The notes beneath the pieces were generated by a model. The model was not told the DNA's origin. It did not search any database and saw only the letters and a program-made list of their open reading frames with translations. Below are positions 27,045 to 55,114 of a DNA stretch of 64,000 bases, in pieces. Every line of letters starts with the position of its first letter. The first letter of the stretch is position 1. A program made the translations under genes and the position numbers. Source of the DNA: Natronosalvus caseinilyticus (GTDB lineage: Archaea; Halobacteriota; Halobacteria; Halobacteriales; Natrialbaceae). The DNA lies in the NCBI RefSeq assembly GCF_017357105.1, contig NZ_CP071596.1, forward strand, positions 930,001-994,000, read 5' to 3'.

Positions 27045-28325
27045 ATGGCGGAACAGGTCGTCACCCGAACCTACACTGCGTCCATTCGGAATCAGCAACG
27101 TGTGTCCGACGACCTTGACGCCCTCGGGTTCTCGGCCTCGAAACTCTGGAACGTCGGGCGGTGGACGTGTAGTCGCGTCTGGGATGAAATCGGCTACATT
27201 CCTGAACACAACGAACTCACCGCGTACCTGAAGTCGCACAAACGCTACGGTGACCTGCATTCTCAGTCAAGTCAGCGAGTCCTTCAAGAACTCGCTGAAG
27301 CGTTCAACGGCTGGTACGGCAAACGACGCAACGGAGACACGAACGCGAACCCGCCCGGCTACCGCAAACACAGAGACGAACATCCGCGTTCCACGGTCAC
27401 ATTCAAGACCAAAGGCTTCAAACTCGACACCAAGTACAACCGCGTCCGCCTCTCCAAAGGTTCAAACCTCAAGGAGTACTGGTCGGACTTCATCCTCTGC
27501 GAGTACCAGATGCGCCCCGGTGTTGACCTCTCCACCGTAGAGAACGTCCAACAAGTTCGGATAGTCTGGGATGGTGAGGAGTGGGAACTCCACTTCGTCT
27601 GCAAAGTCGAAATCGAAGTGACTGAATCCCCCGGTGAGAAGACTGTGGGTATTGACCTCGGTATCAATAATTTCGCCGCCCTTTCCTACGAAGACGGCTA
27701 CAGCGAACTATATCCGCTGAATTGTCTGAAACAGGATGACTACTACTTCAGCAAACGCATCGCTCGCTGTGACGATTCGGACTCCAAGCAGGCGACGCGG
27801 TTGAATCAGACGAAATCGGCCCGCCGCACCTACCACTTCCATACACTCTCGAAACACATCGTTGAACGGTGTGTTGACGAGGGAGTTGGAACGATTGTAG
27901 TGGGAGACCTCTCCGGCATCCGTGAGGGCGAGAAGAGCGGTGAGTCGAAGAACTGGGGCAAGCATGGCAACCTTGACCTACATTCGTGGGCGTTCGACCG
28001 CTTCACGTCGATGCTTGACTACAAGGCCGAGATGGAGGGAATCACGGTTGAGCAAGTGTCTGAGCGTGATACGTCGAAGTCGTGTTCGTGCTGTGGTCGC
28101 AAGCGTGCAGCGAACCGTGTTGAACGCGGATTGTACGTCTGCGATAAGTGTGATGCGGTGGCGAATGCGGACGTGAACGGAGCTGAGAACATTCGACAGA
28201 AAGTATCTCCGAGTCTCGCCTGCGATGGCGGAGATAGGAGTAACGGCTGGTTGGCACAGCCTTCGACGTTCTTGTTTAACAAGGAAACTGGTGCGTTTGC
28301 ACCTCAAGAACAGGCCACGTCGTAA
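27045..28325 (+). CDS. tnpB: TnpB, RNA-guided nuclease of IS200/IS605 element
   Basis: A 426-residue protein. The RuvC-type Asp204 is in VGIDLGINNF and the third Asp376 in NADVNGAENI. The zinc finger has C347-x2-C350 and C366-x2-C369. The second acidic motif, normally xEDL, reads IVVGDLSGIRE here, so Gly287 sits where the catalytic Glu is expected if the motifs are aligned directly. TnpB uses an RNA from the element's right end to cut DNA and maintain the transposon. No tnpA partner is present, so movement would need one in trans. Base composition is lower in GC than the neighbours. Confidence 0.9.
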   Translation: MAEQVVTRTYTASIRNQQRVSDDLDALGFSASKLWNVGRWTCSRVWDEIGYIPEHNELTAYLKSHKRYGDLHSQSSQRVLQELAEAFNGWYGKRRNGDTNANPPGYRKHRDEHPRSTVTFKTKGFKLDTKYNRVRLSKGSNLKEYWSDFILCEYQMRPGVDLSTVENVQQVRIVWDGEEWELHFVCKVEIEVTESPGEKTVGIDLGINNFAALSYEDGYSELYPLNCLKQDDYYFSKRIARCDDSDSKQATRLNQTKSARRTYHFHTLSKHIVERCVDEGVGTIVVGDLSGIREGEKSGESKNWGKHGNLDLHSWAFDRFTSMLDYKAEMEGITVEQVSERDTSKSCSCCGRKRAANRVERGLYVCDKCDAVANADVNGAENIRQKVSPSLACDGGDRSNGWLAQPSTFLFNKETGAFAPQEQATS

Positions 28326-33926: not shown

Positions 33927-33999
33927 GGGACCGTGGGTTAGCCTGGTATACTTCGGGCCTTGGGTGCCCGTGACCCCGGTTCAAATCCGGGCGGTCCCA
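33927..33999 (+). tRNA. tRNA-Pro (anticodon TGG)
   Basis: The acceptor stem GGGACCG pairs with CGGTCCC. The anticodon stem CGGGC/GCCCG encloses loop CTTGGGT, with TGG at positions 34-36. The T-arm is CCCGG-TTCAAAT-CCGGG, the discriminator base is A, and CCA is not encoded. The D-arm is short with a G-T closing pair. The 3' half is the attachment site of the element to its right, and the tRNA is kept intact. Confidence 0.95.
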
Positions 34000-37160: not shown

Positions 37161-37460
37161 CACCGGATCAAAGCCGTGTTTCCGGCCCGGGTAGAGCGAC
37201 GGCGTCGGCCAAAAACCCACCAAAAACGACCGGAAATGGCAGAGTCTATCGGTTTGGTCAACCCTCGAGCGACTGGCTCTCTTCGTGTCGAATAGAGCGA
37301 GCTCCAGTGATTGATAGTCGACCGCTACTGGGGACCGTTCCGACGGTGAATATCTCATTTCTCACGGATCGTCGCCCGGTTCGACGGATGGTGCCGCCTA
37401 CGATCTATTTGGATATTATTATTAAAGCAGTGGTGTACAGTCGTCGACAATTGTATTAGC
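37161..37460. other. Intergenic region before the Q/N-repeat gene
   Basis: No gene is seen. The last 80 bases are AT-rich and hold the likely promoter (tattattattaaag). Confidence 0.5.
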
Positions 37461-38672
37461 ATGAAACAATACATTCTGGCCTCTGTGACGATGCTCGTGG
37501 CCGGCCTGCTGGTAACTGGTCTGGTCGCATCCGCCGGAGGACTCGCGGCGGCGAATAGCCAAACTACCGAGCTGAACGAAGATGACCCGGTTGTCGAACC
37601 CACACACCCGTACGCGAGCGGATACGCCGACTCGCTGTTCACGACGAATCAGCCACACACGAGCGAGGAGGAGCAGACAACGCTCGCCACTGAGCAGACG
37701 CATACGAATGACGGTGATGATATCGAATCGGCCACCGTCGTGACGGAGGAGGGGGAAATCCCCATCGAGCAAGCGCTCGCATCGACGGACGACAACACTC
37801 GGGAGGCAATCGTGATCGAGTCGAACACGGTCGGCAACGAGACCCAGACGAACGTGTATGCGCTGGACGACCAGTCGGCGGAGTCCGTCTGGTCGATGCT
37901 GGTCGAGGACGAGTCGGAGACGAGCCAGTCGGAGCTGCTGGCGATCAGTGAGGCAATCGACGAGACGGCAGCCGAGGACAGGTCGGTGACGGCTGGCGCG
38001 AACGACGACGCGTCGATCATGACCGATCATGGTACGGAAGTGACGGTCGAGCAGGTTGCCGTCGACCGAAACGAACAGAACGGGAGTGCCTCGGCGACCG
38101 GCCAGGACGCCAGCGCGGTCGTCACCCAATCGAACGAACAGGTCACAGAACAGCGGGCGGAGGTTTTGGTCACCGCCGAGAAGGCATCCGTCCTCGTCGT
38201 CCAGTTGAACGTCCAGGAGAGCTCTCAGACCGGCAACGCTGCCGCTGCAGGCGAGAACGCTTCGGCACTCGTCGAGCAGACGAACGACCAACGCGCCGTC
38301 CAGACCGCGAACGTCAGCGTCATCGCTGATGACGCCGTCGTCGTCGTGGCCCAATTGAATGTACAGGTCAGCGAGCAGCACGCGAGAGCCGCAGCTGCAG
38401 GGCCGGGAGCGACGGCGGACGCTACCCAAGAGAGTAACCAGCACAGCGATCAGTCGGTCGACGTCTTCACCTCGACCGACGACGCCGCGGTGTACGTAAC
38501 GCAGGAAAACGTTCAGATCAGCGAGCAAACCGAACACGTCACCACGAGCGACGGCGTTGACGACGGCGACGACAAAGATGATGATAAAAATGGCGACAAA
38601 GATGACGACGAGGACACCCGCAAGTGTGGCGACCCGAAGCCCCCGAAGAAGAAGGGGACTTCCTCGCGATAA
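37461..38672 (+). CDS. Secreted Q/N-ladder repeat protein (curlin-like beta-solenoid, six 25-residue repeats)
   Basis: A 403-residue protein. Residues 1-32 are a Sec signal (AGLLVTGLVASAGGLAAA). An acidic region follows, then six exact 25-residue repeats at 214-363 with pattern GxxAxxxVxQxNxQxxxQ. Gln recurs at repeat positions 10, 14 and 18, and Asn at 12 in five of six. The spacing recalls curli subunits (QxGxxN...Q). A Lys/Asp-rich tail ends in CGDPKPPKKKG. An extracellular stacked-beta fibre or adhesin is inferred. The AT-rich promoter region (ggatattattattaaagc) is about 45 bases upstream. The family is not otherwise recognised. Confidence 0.75.
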   Translation: MKQYILASVTMLVAGLLVTGLVASAGGLAAANSQTTELNEDDPVVEPTHPYASGYADSLFTTNQPHTSEEEQTTLATEQTHTNDGDDIESATVVTEEGEIPIEQALASTDDNTREAIVIESNTVGNETQTNVYALDDQSAESVWSMLVEDESETSQSELLAISEAIDETAAEDRSVTAGANDDASIMTDHGTEVTVEQVAVDRNEQNGSASATGQDASAVVTQSNEQVTEQRAEVLVTAEKASVLVVQLNVQESSQTGNAAAAGENASALVEQTNDQRAVQTANVSVIADDAVVVVAQLNVQVSEQHARAAAAGPGATADATQESNQHSDQSVDVFTSTDDAAVYVTQENVQISEQTEHVTTSDGVDDGDDKDDDKNGDKDDDEDTRKCGDPKPPKKKGTSSR

Positions 38673-39016
38673 CCAGCGGTAACACACTTCGAATGGGATA
38701 CCGGCGGTTCGGCGATGACCGCCCGGGATCCGACCTCATTGTGACAGACGACTCGTAGGGATCGCACGCGACAGTGACAACAAATCGACGGTCGGTACGT
38801 GCGTCGGCGTCTCGAAACCGATCCCATCCGACCCACCGTATCAGATTCGAAACGTGTGATCGCCAGTAATCGACGTTACCGCGACCGTGGCTCCGAAACG
38901 ATCGAAACGGCTATGTCTCGCGGTGGTGGACCGTCACCGAATCGACACGACGGGGTGCTCGAGCGACGTTCTGACCGAACGGCGAAAGAGCTCTCGTCAG
39001 TCGACTCCGTTTGATC
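38673..39016. other. Gene-free stretch
   Basis: Short open frames exist, but none has a coding-like composition or a plausible start. No repeats or strong hairpins are noted. Confidence 0.4.
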
Positions 39017-39556
39017 ATGAACCGACGCAATCTCTTCATTCACATCGGCGCGGCTACGGTAACCGGAGGGGCCGCCTACTGCTTCGAGAACTTCGAAGCG
39101 AGACGAGCGACGGACGGTGGCTCGAACCGGGATGGAACACGTGGTGAGAACGGATCTGATCAGGAATCAGATCTCTCCGACGACGACGATGGCCTGCACG
39201 AGCGGTACGAACTCGGTCGGTCGGACGAGGGGGACGAGCCGACCGAAACTGACGCACACGAAGTCCACGTGCGGAACGAGAGTGAAGACGAACGTACACT
39301 CTCAATTCGAATCGCTCGCGACGGCGAGCCCCGCTTCGATAGCACCGAATCCATCCCGGCAGGCGAACGCCTCGAGTTCGCGTTCGTCCGCCCGGGTTCC
39401 TACGAGATCGAGATCGCGTCCGACGGAACGAGGACGAAAACGAGGGTCGATCATTCGGAATCCGACGCCGTCTGTGCCCAGTCACGGACGACCGTGACGG
39501 TACGGTCGACCGGAATCACCACGCGAACGCGATCGGTGCAGTCGTCCTGTGACTGA
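39017..39556 (+). CDS. Hypothetical exported acidic protein
   Basis: A 179-residue protein from ATG 39017. The MNRRNLFIHIGAATVTGGAA start is signal-like with twin Arg. The next 70 residues are a Ser/Asp/Gly linker, then a small beta-sandwich-like domain (VRNESEDERTLSIRIARDG, SIPAGERLEFAF, PGSYEIEIASDG). Two late Cys residues could pair. It sits between the two repeat proteins and might share their surface location. No family is recognised. Confidence 0.65.
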   Translation: MNRRNLFIHIGAATVTGGAAYCFENFEARRATDGGSNRDGTRGENGSDQESDLSDDDDGLHERYELGRSDEGDEPTETDAHEVHVRNESEDERTLSIRIARDGEPRFDSTESIPAGERLEFAFVRPGSYEIEIASDGTRTKTRVDHSESDAVCAQSRTTVTVRSTGITTRTRSVQSSCD

Positions 39557-39707: not shown

Positions 39708-40005
39708 ATCGCTCGCGTTCCATCGGTTCGTTTCGCATTTCTCTAGGTGAACAGTCGCTGGCGATGGTCTACAGCTACCGTTGTGGTGTCTCGTCGGCTG
39801 ATCTTCGCGTCTTCGTCTGGACGAATCGCAATCGATGACGACTGTTAGCGTAAAAGATAGTTGTCGTTCGATAACGATCAACCGTGAAATCGTTTCGTCC
39901 AGCCTCACAGGTCGTAATCCCGATTACGGAATTGATGTGGCCTGGCTAACAATATAGGGGTCTATCCTCCATTATCGAGACGGCCATCGGGCCGTGGAAA
40001 ATACA
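39708..40005. other. Promoter region of the giant acidic repeat gene
   Basis: No gene is seen. The AT-rich ctaacaatataggggtct at 39945-39962 is the likely promoter for the gene at 40006. Confidence 0.45.
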
Positions 40006-42633
40006 ATGGGAGAACACAGTATAACGCGAATCGTAACGCTTGCGCTGGTCGTGATGATGATGATCAGCGGGGCGGCTATCGGGATGACTGGCGCAGCAGT
40101 TGCAAACGACTCGGACGACAATTGTCAAGATACGGACCAAAGTGTCGAAGGAGACGTCACTCAGGATCAATACACGGACGGGGACGATAACGATCAACGG
40201 TTGCTCCAGCTCCTCGAGATACTTCTGGGCTCGAACCAAGATATCGAGGACGGGGATGACAACTGTCAGTACGCCGACCAGGACAACGACGTCGACGTCG
40301 ACGCCGAACAGGAAATCGACGGCGACAACAACGTCCAGGACGCCGATCAGGCGACCGACGGTGACGAGGCGAACACGCTCGAGAGCGAGAACGAGCAGAC
40401 GATCGAGGATGGCGACGACAACGAGCAGGACGCCGAGCAAGAACACGAACTCGAGCAGGAGAGCGAGCAAGAGATCGACGGCGACGACAACGAACAGTAC
40501 GCCGACCAGGAGGCCGAACTCGAGAACGAGAACGAGCAGGAGATCGAGGACGGTGACGACAACGAGCAGGAAGCAGAACAGGAGAACGAGCTCGAGCAGG
40601 AGAACGAGCAAGAGATCGACGGCGACGACAACGAACAAGACGCCGAGCAGGAAGCCGAGCAGGAGAACGAGAACGAGCAGGAGATCGAGGACGGCGACGA
40701 CAACGAACAAGAAGTAGAACAGGAGAACGAAGGCGAACAAGAGAGCGAGCAGGAAGTCGAGAACAGCGACGACAACGAGCAGGAGACCGAGCAGGAGTTA
40801 GAACAGGAGAACGAAGCCGAGCAAGAAGTCGAAGACGGTGACGACAACGAACAAGAAGCTGAGCAGGAGAACGAACTCGAGCAAGATAGTGAGCAGGAAG
40901 TCGAAAACGGTCTGCTCGCTGCCTTACTCGGCTTCTCAGACAATGAGCAGGAGACCGAACAGGAAGCCGAGCAGGAGAACGAGGTCGAACAGGAAGTCGA
41001 AGATGGTGACGACAACGAGCAGGAGGCCGAACAGGAGAACGAAGGCGAACAAGAAGTCGAGCAGGAAATCGAGGACGGAGATAACAACGAACAGGAGGCC
41101 GAACAAGAGTTAGAACAGGAGAACGAGGCCGAGCAGGAAGTCGAAGACGGTGACGACAACGAGCAGGAGGCCGAACAGGAGAACGAAGGCGAACAAGAAG
41201 TCGAGCAGGAAGTCGAGGCTGGCGTCGACAACGAGCAAGAGGCCGAACAGGAAGCCGAGCAGGAGAACGAGGCTGAACAGGAAGTCGAAGACGGCGACGA
41301 CAACGAACAGGAAGCCGAGCAGGAGAACGAAGCCGAGCAGGAGGCTGAACAGGAAGTCGAAGCTGGCGCCGACAACGAGCAGGAAGCCGAGCAGGAAGCC
41401 GAGCAAGAGAACGAAGTCGAGCAGGAAGTCGAAGACGGTGACGACAACGAGCAGGAGGCAGAACAGGAGAACGAGGTCGAACAAGAAACCGAACAGGAAG
41501 TCGAGAACGGGTACGACAACGAACAGGAAGCCGAGCAGGAAGCCGAGCAGGAGAACGAGGCCGAGCAGGAAGTCGAAGACGGTGACGACAACGAACAAGA
41601 AACTGAACAGGAGAACGAAGCCGAGCAGGAGGCTGAGCAGGAAGTCGAAGACGGCGACGACAACGAACAGGAGGCCGAACAGGAGGTCGAACAAGAGAAC
41701 GAAGCCGAGCAGGAAGTTGAAGACGGCGACGACAACGAGCAGGAAGCCGAACAGGAGAACGAGGCCGAACAGGAGGTCGAGCAAGAGGCTGAGGGCGACG
41801 ACAACGAACAGGAGGCCGAACAGGAGGTCGAACAAGAGAACGAAGCCGAGCAGGAAGTTGAAGACGGCGACGACAACGAGCAGGAAGCCGAGCAGGAGAA
41901 CGAGGCCGAACAGGAAGTCGAGCAGGAAGCCGACGGTGACGACAACGAGCAGGAAGCTGAGCAAGAAATAGAACAGGAAAACGAAGCCGAGCAAGAAGTC
42001 GAAGACGGTGACGACAACGAGCAGGAAGCCGAGCAGGAGAACGAAGCCGAGCAGGAAGTAGAGCAGGAGGCTGAGGGCGACGCCAACGAGCAGGAGGCTG
42101 AACAGGAAGTCGAGCAAGAGAACGAAGTCGAGCAAGAGGCTGAGGGCGACGATAACGAACAGGAAGCTGAGCAGAAGAACGAGGCCGAACAGGAAGTCGA
42201 GCAAGAGGCTGAGGGCGACGATAACGAACAGGAAGCCGAGCAAGAAGTCGAGCAAGAGAACGAAATCGAGCAGGAGGCTGAGGGCGACGACAACGAACAG
42301 GACGCCGAGCAGAACTCCGACGTCGATCAGGAGATCGAGCAGGAAGCCGACGGTGACGACAACGAGCAGGAGGCCGAACAGGAAGCCGAAGTCGATCAGG
42401 AGATCGATCAGGAAGCCGACGGTGACGACAACGAGCAGGACGCCGAACAGAACGTCGAGGTCGACCAGAACACTGAGCAGGAAGCCGACGGTGACGACAA
42501 CGAGCAGAGCTCGACCAATGAGGTCGAGGTCAGCCAGGACACGACGCAGGAAGCCGAGGGTGACGACAACACCCAGAGCTCCACTTCGAGTGTCAGCGTC
42601 TCGAGCAACCAGTCCCAGAGCGCCTCGAGCTAA
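40006..42633 (+). CDS. Giant secreted Glu-alternating repeat protein (putative acidic beta-solenoid)
   Basis: An 876-residue protein with a Sec signal at residues 1-33. The rest is about thirty repeats of GDDNEQEAEQENEAEQEVED type. Between the GDDN turns every second residue is Glu, and the others are Q, A, N or V. That period of two fits beta-strands with Glu outside and a Q/N/A core, not a heptad coiled coil. The GxxN-x5-Q spacing matches curlin repeats. Two hydrophobic interruptions (RLLQLLEILLGS at 65-76, GLLAALLGFS at 302-311) and a Ser-rich C-terminus (VSVSSNQSQSASS) stand out. A surface fibre or calcium-binding matrix protein is inferred. Confidence 0.8.
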   Translation: MGEHSITRIVTLALVVMMMISGAAIGMTGAAVANDSDDNCQDTDQSVEGDVTQDQYTDGDDNDQRLLQLLEILLGSNQDIEDGDDNCQYADQDNDVDVDAEQEIDGDNNVQDADQATDGDEANTLESENEQTIEDGDDNEQDAEQEHELEQESEQEIDGDDNEQYADQEAELENENEQEIEDGDDNEQEAEQENELEQENEQEIDGDDNEQDAEQEAEQENENEQEIEDGDDNEQEVEQENEGEQESEQEVENSDDNEQETEQELEQENEAEQEVEDGDDNEQEAEQENELEQDSEQEVENGLLAALLGFSDNEQETEQEAEQENEVEQEVEDGDDNEQEAEQENEGEQEVEQEIEDGDNNEQEAEQELEQENEAEQEVEDGDDNEQEAEQENEGEQEVEQEVEAGVDNEQEAEQEAEQENEAEQEVEDGDDNEQEAEQENEAEQEAEQEVEAGADNEQEAEQEAEQENEVEQEVEDGDDNEQEAEQENEVEQETEQEVENGYDNEQEAEQEAEQENEAEQEVEDGDDNEQETEQENEAEQEAEQEVEDGDDNEQEAEQEVEQENEAEQEVEDGDDNEQEAEQENEAEQEVEQEAEGDDNEQEAEQEVEQENEAEQEVEDGDDNEQEAEQENEAEQEVEQEADGDDNEQEAEQEIEQENEAEQEVEDGDDNEQEAEQENEAEQEVEQEAEGDANEQEAEQEVEQENEVEQEAEGDDNEQEAEQKNEAEQEVEQEAEGDDNEQEAEQEVEQENEIEQEAEGDDNEQDAEQNSDVDQEIEQEADGDDNEQEAEQEAEVDQEIDQEADGDDNEQDAEQNVEVDQNTEQEADGDDNEQSSTNEVEVSQDTTQEAEGDDNTQSSTSSVSVSSNQSQSASS
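40380..42560. repeat. Tandem DNA repeats (about 48-72 bp units) encoding the Glu-rich repeats
   Basis: Units such as gacaacgaacaggaagccga and gaacgaggccgagcaggaag recur dozens of times with silent variation. Copy number probably varies by recombination or slippage. It is a coding repeat, not a CRISPR array, because there are no unique spacers. Confidence 0.85.
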
Positions 42634-53768: not shown

Positions 53769-53993
53769 ATGACAAAATCTTCGAACAAACACAACTCGTA
53801 CGAAACGACCGCAGCCAGCTGCGAACTCTGCCCACGTCCCGCGTCAACCACGATCAGCTCAGATGGGTGTGGCCCCATGCTTGTGTGTGGGATCCACGCC
53901 TCATCTCTTGAGGCTATTTCAGAGCCAGCCGCCTCGAACAGCTGGGACCACCCAAGCCAAAAGAACGGGCCTCAGAACAGGTGGGAGCTATGA
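53769..53993 (+). CDS. Small cysteine/histidine protein coupled to the integrase
   Basis: A 74-residue protein: MTKSSNKHNSYETTAASCEL, then CPRPASTTISSDGCGPMLVC, then GIHASS. Cys-x2-Cys, Cys, Cys-x2-His residues suggest a zinc site. Its stop overlaps the integrase ATG (ATGA), so both are probably made together. It could be an excisionase-like or directionality partner, but that is inference. Confidence 0.65.
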   Translation: MTKSSNKHNSYETTAASCELCPRPASTTISSDGCGPMLVCGIHASSLEAISEPAASNSWDHPSQKNGPQNRWEL

Positions 53994-55114
53994 GTTCGGC
54001 CCCAGACGTCTTTGAGGCCTCCCTGGACGAGCCACCCAAGTACGAAGTCCCCATCGAGGGAACAACGGATGGAGGTGACCGTGTCCCCGACCTCTCCCCA
54101 CGGGAAGCGCTCGAGCGATGGCTTAACAAACTCCGAGTGTCCAGGAGTGAATCCACCGTTTCAGCGTACCACTACCGGTTGAAACATTTCGTTGAGTGGT
54201 GTGAAGAGGTGGGCATCTCCGAGGTCGGCCAGGTGAACGGGTGGGACATCGAGTCCTACGAGACCTCCCGGCGGGAACAGGGGTTAGAGCCAATTACCCT
54301 CAACAACGAGTTGGGCACCCTGCAAAGTTTCTTCGAGTACTGCGTTAAGGTCGAACTCGTCGACGAAGGGCTCCCAACGAAGGTTGACCCACCGGTCGTT
54401 CCCGCTGCCGATCAGGTGAGCAAGGTGCGACTCCACACCGACCGCGCTCAGGCGTTACTCACCCACTACGTGGCGACTGAGTGTGGTTCACGCGCGCACA
54501 CGTTGCTCGCGCTGGCGTGGTTTACCGGCGCACGTTTGGGCGCACTTCGCGGCCTCGATCTCGAGGACTACGACCGAGAGCAACAGTGCCTCAAGTTCAC
54601 TCACCGCCCGCGCGAAGAGACCCCATTGAAGAATGGAGCCGACGGTGAACGCTTCGTTGGCCTCCCGAAGCAGGCGTGTGACGTTGTCGACGCGTACATT
54701 CAGAAACATCGACTCGAAAAGTACGACGACTATGGTCGGCGGCCACTGTTGACGAGTGAGCGTGGCCGTCCCTCGACGAATGCCGTTCGGGCCTGGATGT
54801 ACCTGGCCACCGTCCCATGTCTCCACTCACCGTGCCCCCACGGAAACGACCCGGACACGTGTAATTTTCTGGATTACTCGGCGGCGAGCAAGTGTCCCTC
54901 GTCGCGGAGTCCCCACCAGGTTCGGACTGGCTCGATCACGTGGCAACTCAACCGAGGGATTCCCCCAGAACGTGTCGCCGAACGGGTGAACACGTCGATC
55001 GAGGTCCTCCTCCGACATTACGATCAACCGACCAGGATGGAGGAGATGCGCGAGCGTCGGCGCCCATACCTGGATCGCCTCTCATTCGGCGACGAGGAGG
55101 GTGATGACCGATGA
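53990..55114 (+). CDS. int: Tyrosine recombinase (integrase) of the element
   Basis: A 374-residue protein. The N-terminal SAM-like core-binding domain (ALERWLNKLRVSRSESTVSAY) is followed by the catalytic domain: R182 in TGARLGALRG, H309-x2-R312 in SPHQVRTGS and Y344 in LLRHYDQPT. A four-Cys insertion (C277, C282, C291, C302) is common in haloarchaeal integrases. It cuts and joins at tRNA-Pro. The stop codon directly precedes the right att copy, so the intact gene sits at the element's edge. Confidence 0.93.
   Translation: MSSAPDVFEASLDEPPKYEVPIEGTTDGGDRVPDLSPREALERWLNKLRVSRSESTVSAYHYRLKHFVEWCEEVGISEVGQVNGWDIESYETSRREQGLEPITLNNELGTLQSFFEYCVKVELVDEGLPTKVDPPVVPAADQVSKVRLHTDRAQALLTHYVATECGSRAHTLLALAWFTGARLGALRGLDLEDYDREQQCLKFTHRPREETPLKNGADGERFVGLPKQACDVVDAYIQKHRLEKYDDYGRRPLLTSERGRPSTNAVRAWMYLATVPCLHSPCPHGNDPDTCNFLDYSAASKCPSSRSPHQVRTGSITWQLNRGIPPERVAERVNTSIEVLLRHYDQPTRMEEMRERRRPYLDRLSFGDEEGDDR

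Follow-up and report, generated by a model that had tools for sequence, protein, structure and literature searches.

The minimal repeat of curli has been given as X6QXGX2NX10 in a survey of 2012, which noted curli-like repeats in just one archaeal protein (PMC3521004), and the curlin kernel as N-x-Psi-x-Psi-x-Q (PMC10192328). Among archaea, a study of 2014 reported that Haloferax volcanii biofilms stain with amyloid dyes and offered no more than a distant candidate gene (PMC4180959), and the sheath protein SH of Methanospirillum provides an archaeal surface of amyloid-like beta-arches with antiparallel strands (PMC10593813). We find bona fide curlin-repeat proteins in two other haloarchaea (genomes G161 and G034; loci L025 and L026), with PF07012 matches at E about 1e-46 and 10-11 QxGxxN motifs; these proteins are halophilic curlins. 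In the L025 protein the outward positions are nearly all Asp.

Here we compare with these systems a locus in a 64,000-nucleotide stretch of haloarchaeal DNA (the window), centred on a secreted ladder protein that we call P0001. Restricted to one genus, P0001 is a new protein of cross-beta repeats and not a curlin. Its parts and neighbours are listed in Table 1. The signal peptide and charged tail that a preliminary description placed on either side of the repeats are both present by inspection, the tail being acidic; in the family alignment C389 is conserved and followed by Lys. The N-terminal region contains no known Pfam domain.

Table 1. Features of the P0001 locus and of loci used for comparison. 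Positions are those of the window unless a locus is named.
Feature	Position	Strand	Basis
tRNA-Pro gene, upstream context	33927..33999	+	
Primase-polymerase domain protein between tRNA-Pro and P0001	34185..37160	+	PF09250, E 7.7e-7
P0001, 403 aa secreted ladder protein	37461..38672	+	ORF translation, purifying selection in family
Sec-type signal peptide, residues 1-31, end ..GGLAAA	37461..37553	+	by inspection
P0001 N-terminal region, residues ~65-187	37653..38021	+	invariant columns in 4/4 family members
Unit 0, degenerate (residues 189-213), with Q10 and Q18	38025..38099	+	
Six 25-residue ladder units, residues 214-363	38100..38549	+	
Acidic tail, conserved Cys (C389), Lys-rich end	38550..38669	+	
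Exported protein of 181 aa with twin-arginine-like start and, by inspection, beta-rich C-terminal half; may be an accessory	39011..39556	+	
Secreted 879 aa E/Q-ladder protein, ~33 units of 23-24 residues GDDNEQEAEQ...	39994..42633	+	
FG-GAP and Q-ladder proteins, directly upstream of E/Q-ladder gene	L043:1565-5722, L044:545-5308, L068:4054-7686, L069:2174-6106, L073:2341-6693		
~255 aa two-domain secreted accessory	L044:10381-11184, L069:6166-6927, L073:6776-7555, L075:6178-6954		
Haloarchaeal curlin-repeat proteins, 13 and 10 stretches	L025:1222-2265, L026:1300-2037	-	PF07012

The ladder divides, as had been described, into six gapless blocks of 25 residues that all keep Q10, Q14 and Q18 and of which five keep N12; A at position 4 (6/6) and V at position 8 (5/6) are retained as well. 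In the degenerate seventh unit that precedes them, Q198 (position 10) and Q206 (position 18) are both invariant in orthologues. Self-identity reaches 0.297 at a lag of 25 residues and 0.433 at a lag of 50, exceeding the maximum found in 2000 shuffles over lags 5-59 (0.226, mean 0.160), so that the repeat is beyond chance; and because identity is higher at lag 50 than at lag 25, the true period is 50, with odd and even units alternating. When the units of window P0001 and its paralogue are taken together, every even position from 4 to 24 is more conserved than any odd one (mean entropy 0.91 versus 2.44 bit, no overlap, p=6e-5), and Gly and Pro are almost confined to positions 25 and 1-3 (11/48 versus 2/252 elsewhere, p=4e-8). 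Judged from sequence, a beta-strand conserved on one of its faces, with a turn once in every unit, has this pattern: each unit looks like a single strand of ~20 residues plus a turn.

How such strands would be arranged is less easily read. A single-sequence AF2 model of residues 61-387 is unusable (pLDDT 41.6); for residues 186-365, where one of five models rose above 50 pLDDT, we obtained a strand of 15-21 residues for every unit, seven in all (pLDDT 61.7, pTM 0.52). Foldseek searches with the model against the PDB and viral models returned nothing at E<0.001, and the weak matches of this low-confidence model were mostly antiparallel sheets and barrels (FyuA, TMq 0.48) rather than solenoids. 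The side-chain classes of adjacent units fit best in an antiparallel register with p+q=28 (0.75 and 0.78 versus a null of 0.39-0.40; p=0.02 and 0.005), a register set by a 4-residue turn and to which an arch within the unit gives a nearly equal value. On balance we lean towards long strands. Of the stacked beta-solenoid or functional amyloid originally proposed, then, a secreted cross-beta Q/N-ladder repeat is well supported by sequence, whereas the stacked solenoid is unproven: each unit has one turn-like site, inward and outward residues alternate without a break over positions 4-24, the units alternate with a period of 50 residues, and the weak model has long strands.

These results bear directly on an alternative in which P0001 would be a globular or oligomeric antiparallel beta-sheet, soluble or attached to the surface, acting as an adhesin or binding protein and not as a fibre subunit. 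The seven modelled strands and the antiparallel character of the weak matches point that way, as do the single turn site per unit, the 50-residue alternation and the 4-residue hairpin of the best register. However, confidence in the model is low, no structural match passes the threshold, the register is indistinguishable from a within-unit arch, and the constant linkage to a curlin-like ladder protein (see below) hints at a role in fibres; we consider this alternative somewhat unlikely.

Is P0001 nonetheless a curlin in disguise? One might imagine a curli-type beta-solenoid, a highly diverged curlin whose 19-residue unit was lengthened by six residues inserted between Q18 and the arc Gly. Its ladder positions A/S4-A6-V8-Q10-N12-S16-Q18 do coincide with N4-A6-V8-Q10-N12-V16-Q18 of the haloarchaeal curlin unit; the kernel described for curlin is N-x-Psi-x-Psi-x-Q (PMC10192328). 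Yet QxGxxN, present 10-11 times in the true haloarchaeal curlins, occurs in none of the four members of the P0001 family, which thus lack the minimal curli repeat, and PF07012 finds no match above cut-off in P0001 or anywhere else in its genome. The curlin profile score of P0001 (15.9) lies inside the shuffled range (maximum 16.1), 85/100 and 25/100 permutations that kept period and composition score as high against the G161 curlin as P0001 itself does, and there is but one Gly/Pro turn site per unit. With a likeness to curlins no greater than that of permuted controls, the label "curli-like" finds no support in P0001, and we regard a diverged curlin solenoid as improbable. The CsgG pore (PF03783) was not found in any of 21 genomes including that of the window, while an E. 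coli control was positive; its absence is expected since haloarchaea have no outer membrane.

The family to which P0001 belongs is small. A paralogue lies in the same genome (at 2.02 Mb on contig C1; 53% over 319 residues) and orthologues are found in two further genomes of the genus, giving four copies in three of the eight genus genomes; none turned up in the other five or in 53 genomes from outside the genus. When a profile was run against 293 genomes of the order, the sole additions were three weak matches (G190, G070 and G302, E 3e-4 to 8e-4), all spurious and attributable on reading to signal peptides or low complexity, and a search for related loci among genome contigs and viral contigs returned none. 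Nor does P0001 match any sequence in Pfam, NCBIfam or the PDB, which bears out the earlier statement that it belongs to no recognised archaeal family. Restriction to one genus, and absence from five of the eight genomes there, mean that the family is dispensable. The gene is nevertheless real, as dN/dS is 0.14-0.24 among orthologues (0.39 between the window copy and the paralogue). A 421 aa open reading frame on the opposite strand (37422-38687) was rejected as a shadow frame, given this selection and the acidic composition and signal peptide of the + frame.

All four copies adjoin, on one side and as the nearest large neighbour, a gene for a secreted E/Q-ladder protein of 879-1056 aa. The pair is thus present at 4/4 copies in three genomes, in tandem in the window and convergent at the three other loci. 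In the window 1.3 kb and a third gene separate the two, so that a shared transcript is not evident; the protein encoded by this third gene has no significant family match and was not seen at the other three loci. Units of the E/Q-ladder proteins beside the P0001 family measure 23-25 residues (at the paralogue locus, GDDNDQEAEQNDNDIDQQSVQLVLF). In the window protein Glu or Asp fills nearly all odd positions, N4, Q6, A8, Q10 and Q20 are nearly invariant, and two N-terminal Cys lie 47 residues apart; a Cys pair at a spacing of 46-50 residues, equal to two units, recurs in ten of ten E/Q-ladder proteins examined. Among orthologues dN/dS is 0.10-0.16. The family as a whole is present in 7/243 genomes of the order, and named records from HArc-gm2 and Halorussus amylolyticus contain it too; weak matches in G012 were discarded as signal-peptide or low-complexity hits. 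At three loci (L044:5938-8754, L069:7476-9950, L073:7944-10619) the C-terminus passes from an acidic run into a short hydrophobic tail (..VAPVAL, ..IAPLAL, ..TAPPLGF) that is absent in the window genus and is perhaps a sorting signal.

It is this neighbour, absent from the preliminary description, that, judging by comparison of the repeats, appears to be the curlin-like protein, and not P0001. For 7/7 long E/Q-ladder proteins, only 0-2 of 100 permutations that preserve the period reach their score against the two haloarchaeal curlins, and the window protein matches a curlin-repeat protein in the PDB (8c50, E 1.7e-5, with a HMMER composition bias of 40.8 bits that exceeds the score). The window E/Q-ladder protein contains no QxGxxN motif and has no Pfam match, and testing the long proteins for palindromes gave no significant result. 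Between P0001 and the long proteins there is no significant sequence relation (7.9-11.5 bits): among 100 permutations, 0-1 score as high against two of the seven and 8-82 against the other five.

What might the two proteins do together? The explanation we tentatively favour, and hold to be a serious possibility if not quite a probable one, is that P0001 is the smaller partner in a two-protein, curli-analogous system of extracellular surface fibres. We find no more economical reading than an amyloid-like surface fibre of two proteins. The sequences show the genes, the repeats, the linkage of the two genes in all four known copies, the purifying selection and the curlin likeness of the neighbour; we infer fibre formation itself, along with export, the division of labour and a role in biofilms. 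P0001 would be exported through Sec to the surface, where its C-terminal half would stack seven strand-turn units of 25 residues in cross-beta fashion, presenting a conserved A-A-V-Q-N-Q-S-Q-A-V-V array on one face and a variable face on the other. It could then serve as anchor, nucleator or minor subunit, comparable to CsgB, while the adjacent protein, halophilic and curlin-like, would supply the major component of the fibre. Both would fold and stack outside the cell, held together by Q/N side-chain ladders and the pairing of edge strands and kept soluble in high salt by acidic outer faces, and the resulting fibres would belong to the matrix or make cells adhere to one another.

Outside the window genus the E/Q-ladder gene has a different companion. 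It directly adjoins a gene for a secreted protein of 1200-1590 aa that combines FG-GAP repeats with a Q ladder, at five distinct loci plus one near-duplicate (L043 and L072 being near-duplicates, with L044, L068, L069 and L073); at L070 this companion is absent. Two of the proteins were tested and match FG-GAP in Pfam at E 5e-20 and 5e-29. Their order is FG-GAP, acidic linker, Q-x-Q-x-Q ladder (23/25 periodicity) and an acidic or Thr-rich tail, with two Cys 43-45 residues apart. Pfam detects no FG-GAP repeats in P0001 or in the window genome, and homology between the P0001 ladder and those of the FG-GAP proteins was sought and not detected; P0001 may stand in their place. A third component is suggested by a secreted two-domain family of ~255 aa, which has strong matches (E < 1e-99) in exactly 4/243 genomes: three copies lie beside an E/Q-ladder gene and one ~100 bp from the true curlin gene of G034. 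We consider it a candidate assembly accessory; its match to the CsgH chaperone model is not significant (E 0.4). An exported protein of twin-arginine-like type, whose C-terminal domain is CAP/YkwD, recurs nearby as well (L044:8878-10308, L069:10070-11521, L073:622-2211). Halobacteria may conceivably possess an undescribed two-component amyloid-like fibre system, made of a halophilic curlin-like E/Q-ladder protein and a lineage-specific ladder partner and sharing an accessory with true haloarchaeal curlins. The partner would be of the P0001 type in the window genus and of the FG-GAP/Q-ladder type elsewhere, and P0001 would bring in a new kind of cross-beta architecture, with one long strand to every 25-residue unit; the proposal, taken as a whole and including this assignment of partners, strikes us as possible but doubtful.

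The surroundings of the window copy include transposase and integrase genes. One transposase is of the TnpB type (OrfB_IS605/Cas12f1-like TNB, 27045-28325), and integrase genes related to one another are found no more than about 16 kb from the ladder genes at two loci (window 53981-55114 and L021:15810-16820), which would fit mobility of the ladder module. With the tRNA-Pro and primase-polymerase genes close by as well, the window copy is perhaps mobile; a direct repeat of the tRNA end, such as would mark an integrated element, has no copy in the window. That P0001 is a low-complexity halophilic spacer or stalk, cargo of an element integrated at tRNA-Pro and devoid of a specific assembly function, fits the tRNA and Prim-Pol genes directly upstream, the integrase further downstream and the patchy distribution, but is very unlikely, given the missing tRNA-end copy, the invariant ladder positions, and a paralogue that, with its orthologues, sits in a different, syntenic setting under purifying selection.

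Should the fibre reading be true, the pair would represent a Q/N-ladder fibre design for molar salt, with one face of Q, N, A and V and the other almost entirely Glu. P0001 and the E/Q-ladder protein are, on sequence grounds, good candidates for the amyloid-like matrix fibres whose presence in haloarchaeal biofilms has long been suspected, and if the module does make fibres then named genes are now available for deletion or expression.

The comparison with known systems can be drawn accordingly. The sheath protein SH can be likened to P0001 by description, but differs in its helical cap domain and in the rings that it builds in a methanogen (PMC10593813). The FG-GAP/Q-ladder proteins share with P0001 secretion, a Q ladder (theirs of 23/25-residue periodicity), an acidic (or, in theirs, Thr-rich) tail and a place beside an E/Q-ladder gene; they differ in their far greater length, their FG-GAP propeller and ladders without detectable homology. 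Like CsgA and CsgB (PF07012), P0001 is secreted and built of short exact repeats with invariant inward Q/N and alternating inward and outward residues, and is encoded together with a second, unequal putative subunit. Unlike them, it has a unit of 25 residues rather than 19-23, a Q10-N12-Q14-Q18 ladder in place of N-x-Psi-x-Psi-x-Q or QxGxxN, and one turn site per unit, with neither PF07012 nor CsgG to accompany it. The haloarchaeal curlins, finally, come from the same order and are likewise secreted N/Q-ladder proteins, yet they carry the true curlin motif, of which the window genome has none; if our reading is true, P0001 would be a separate, genus-level solution to the same fibre task.
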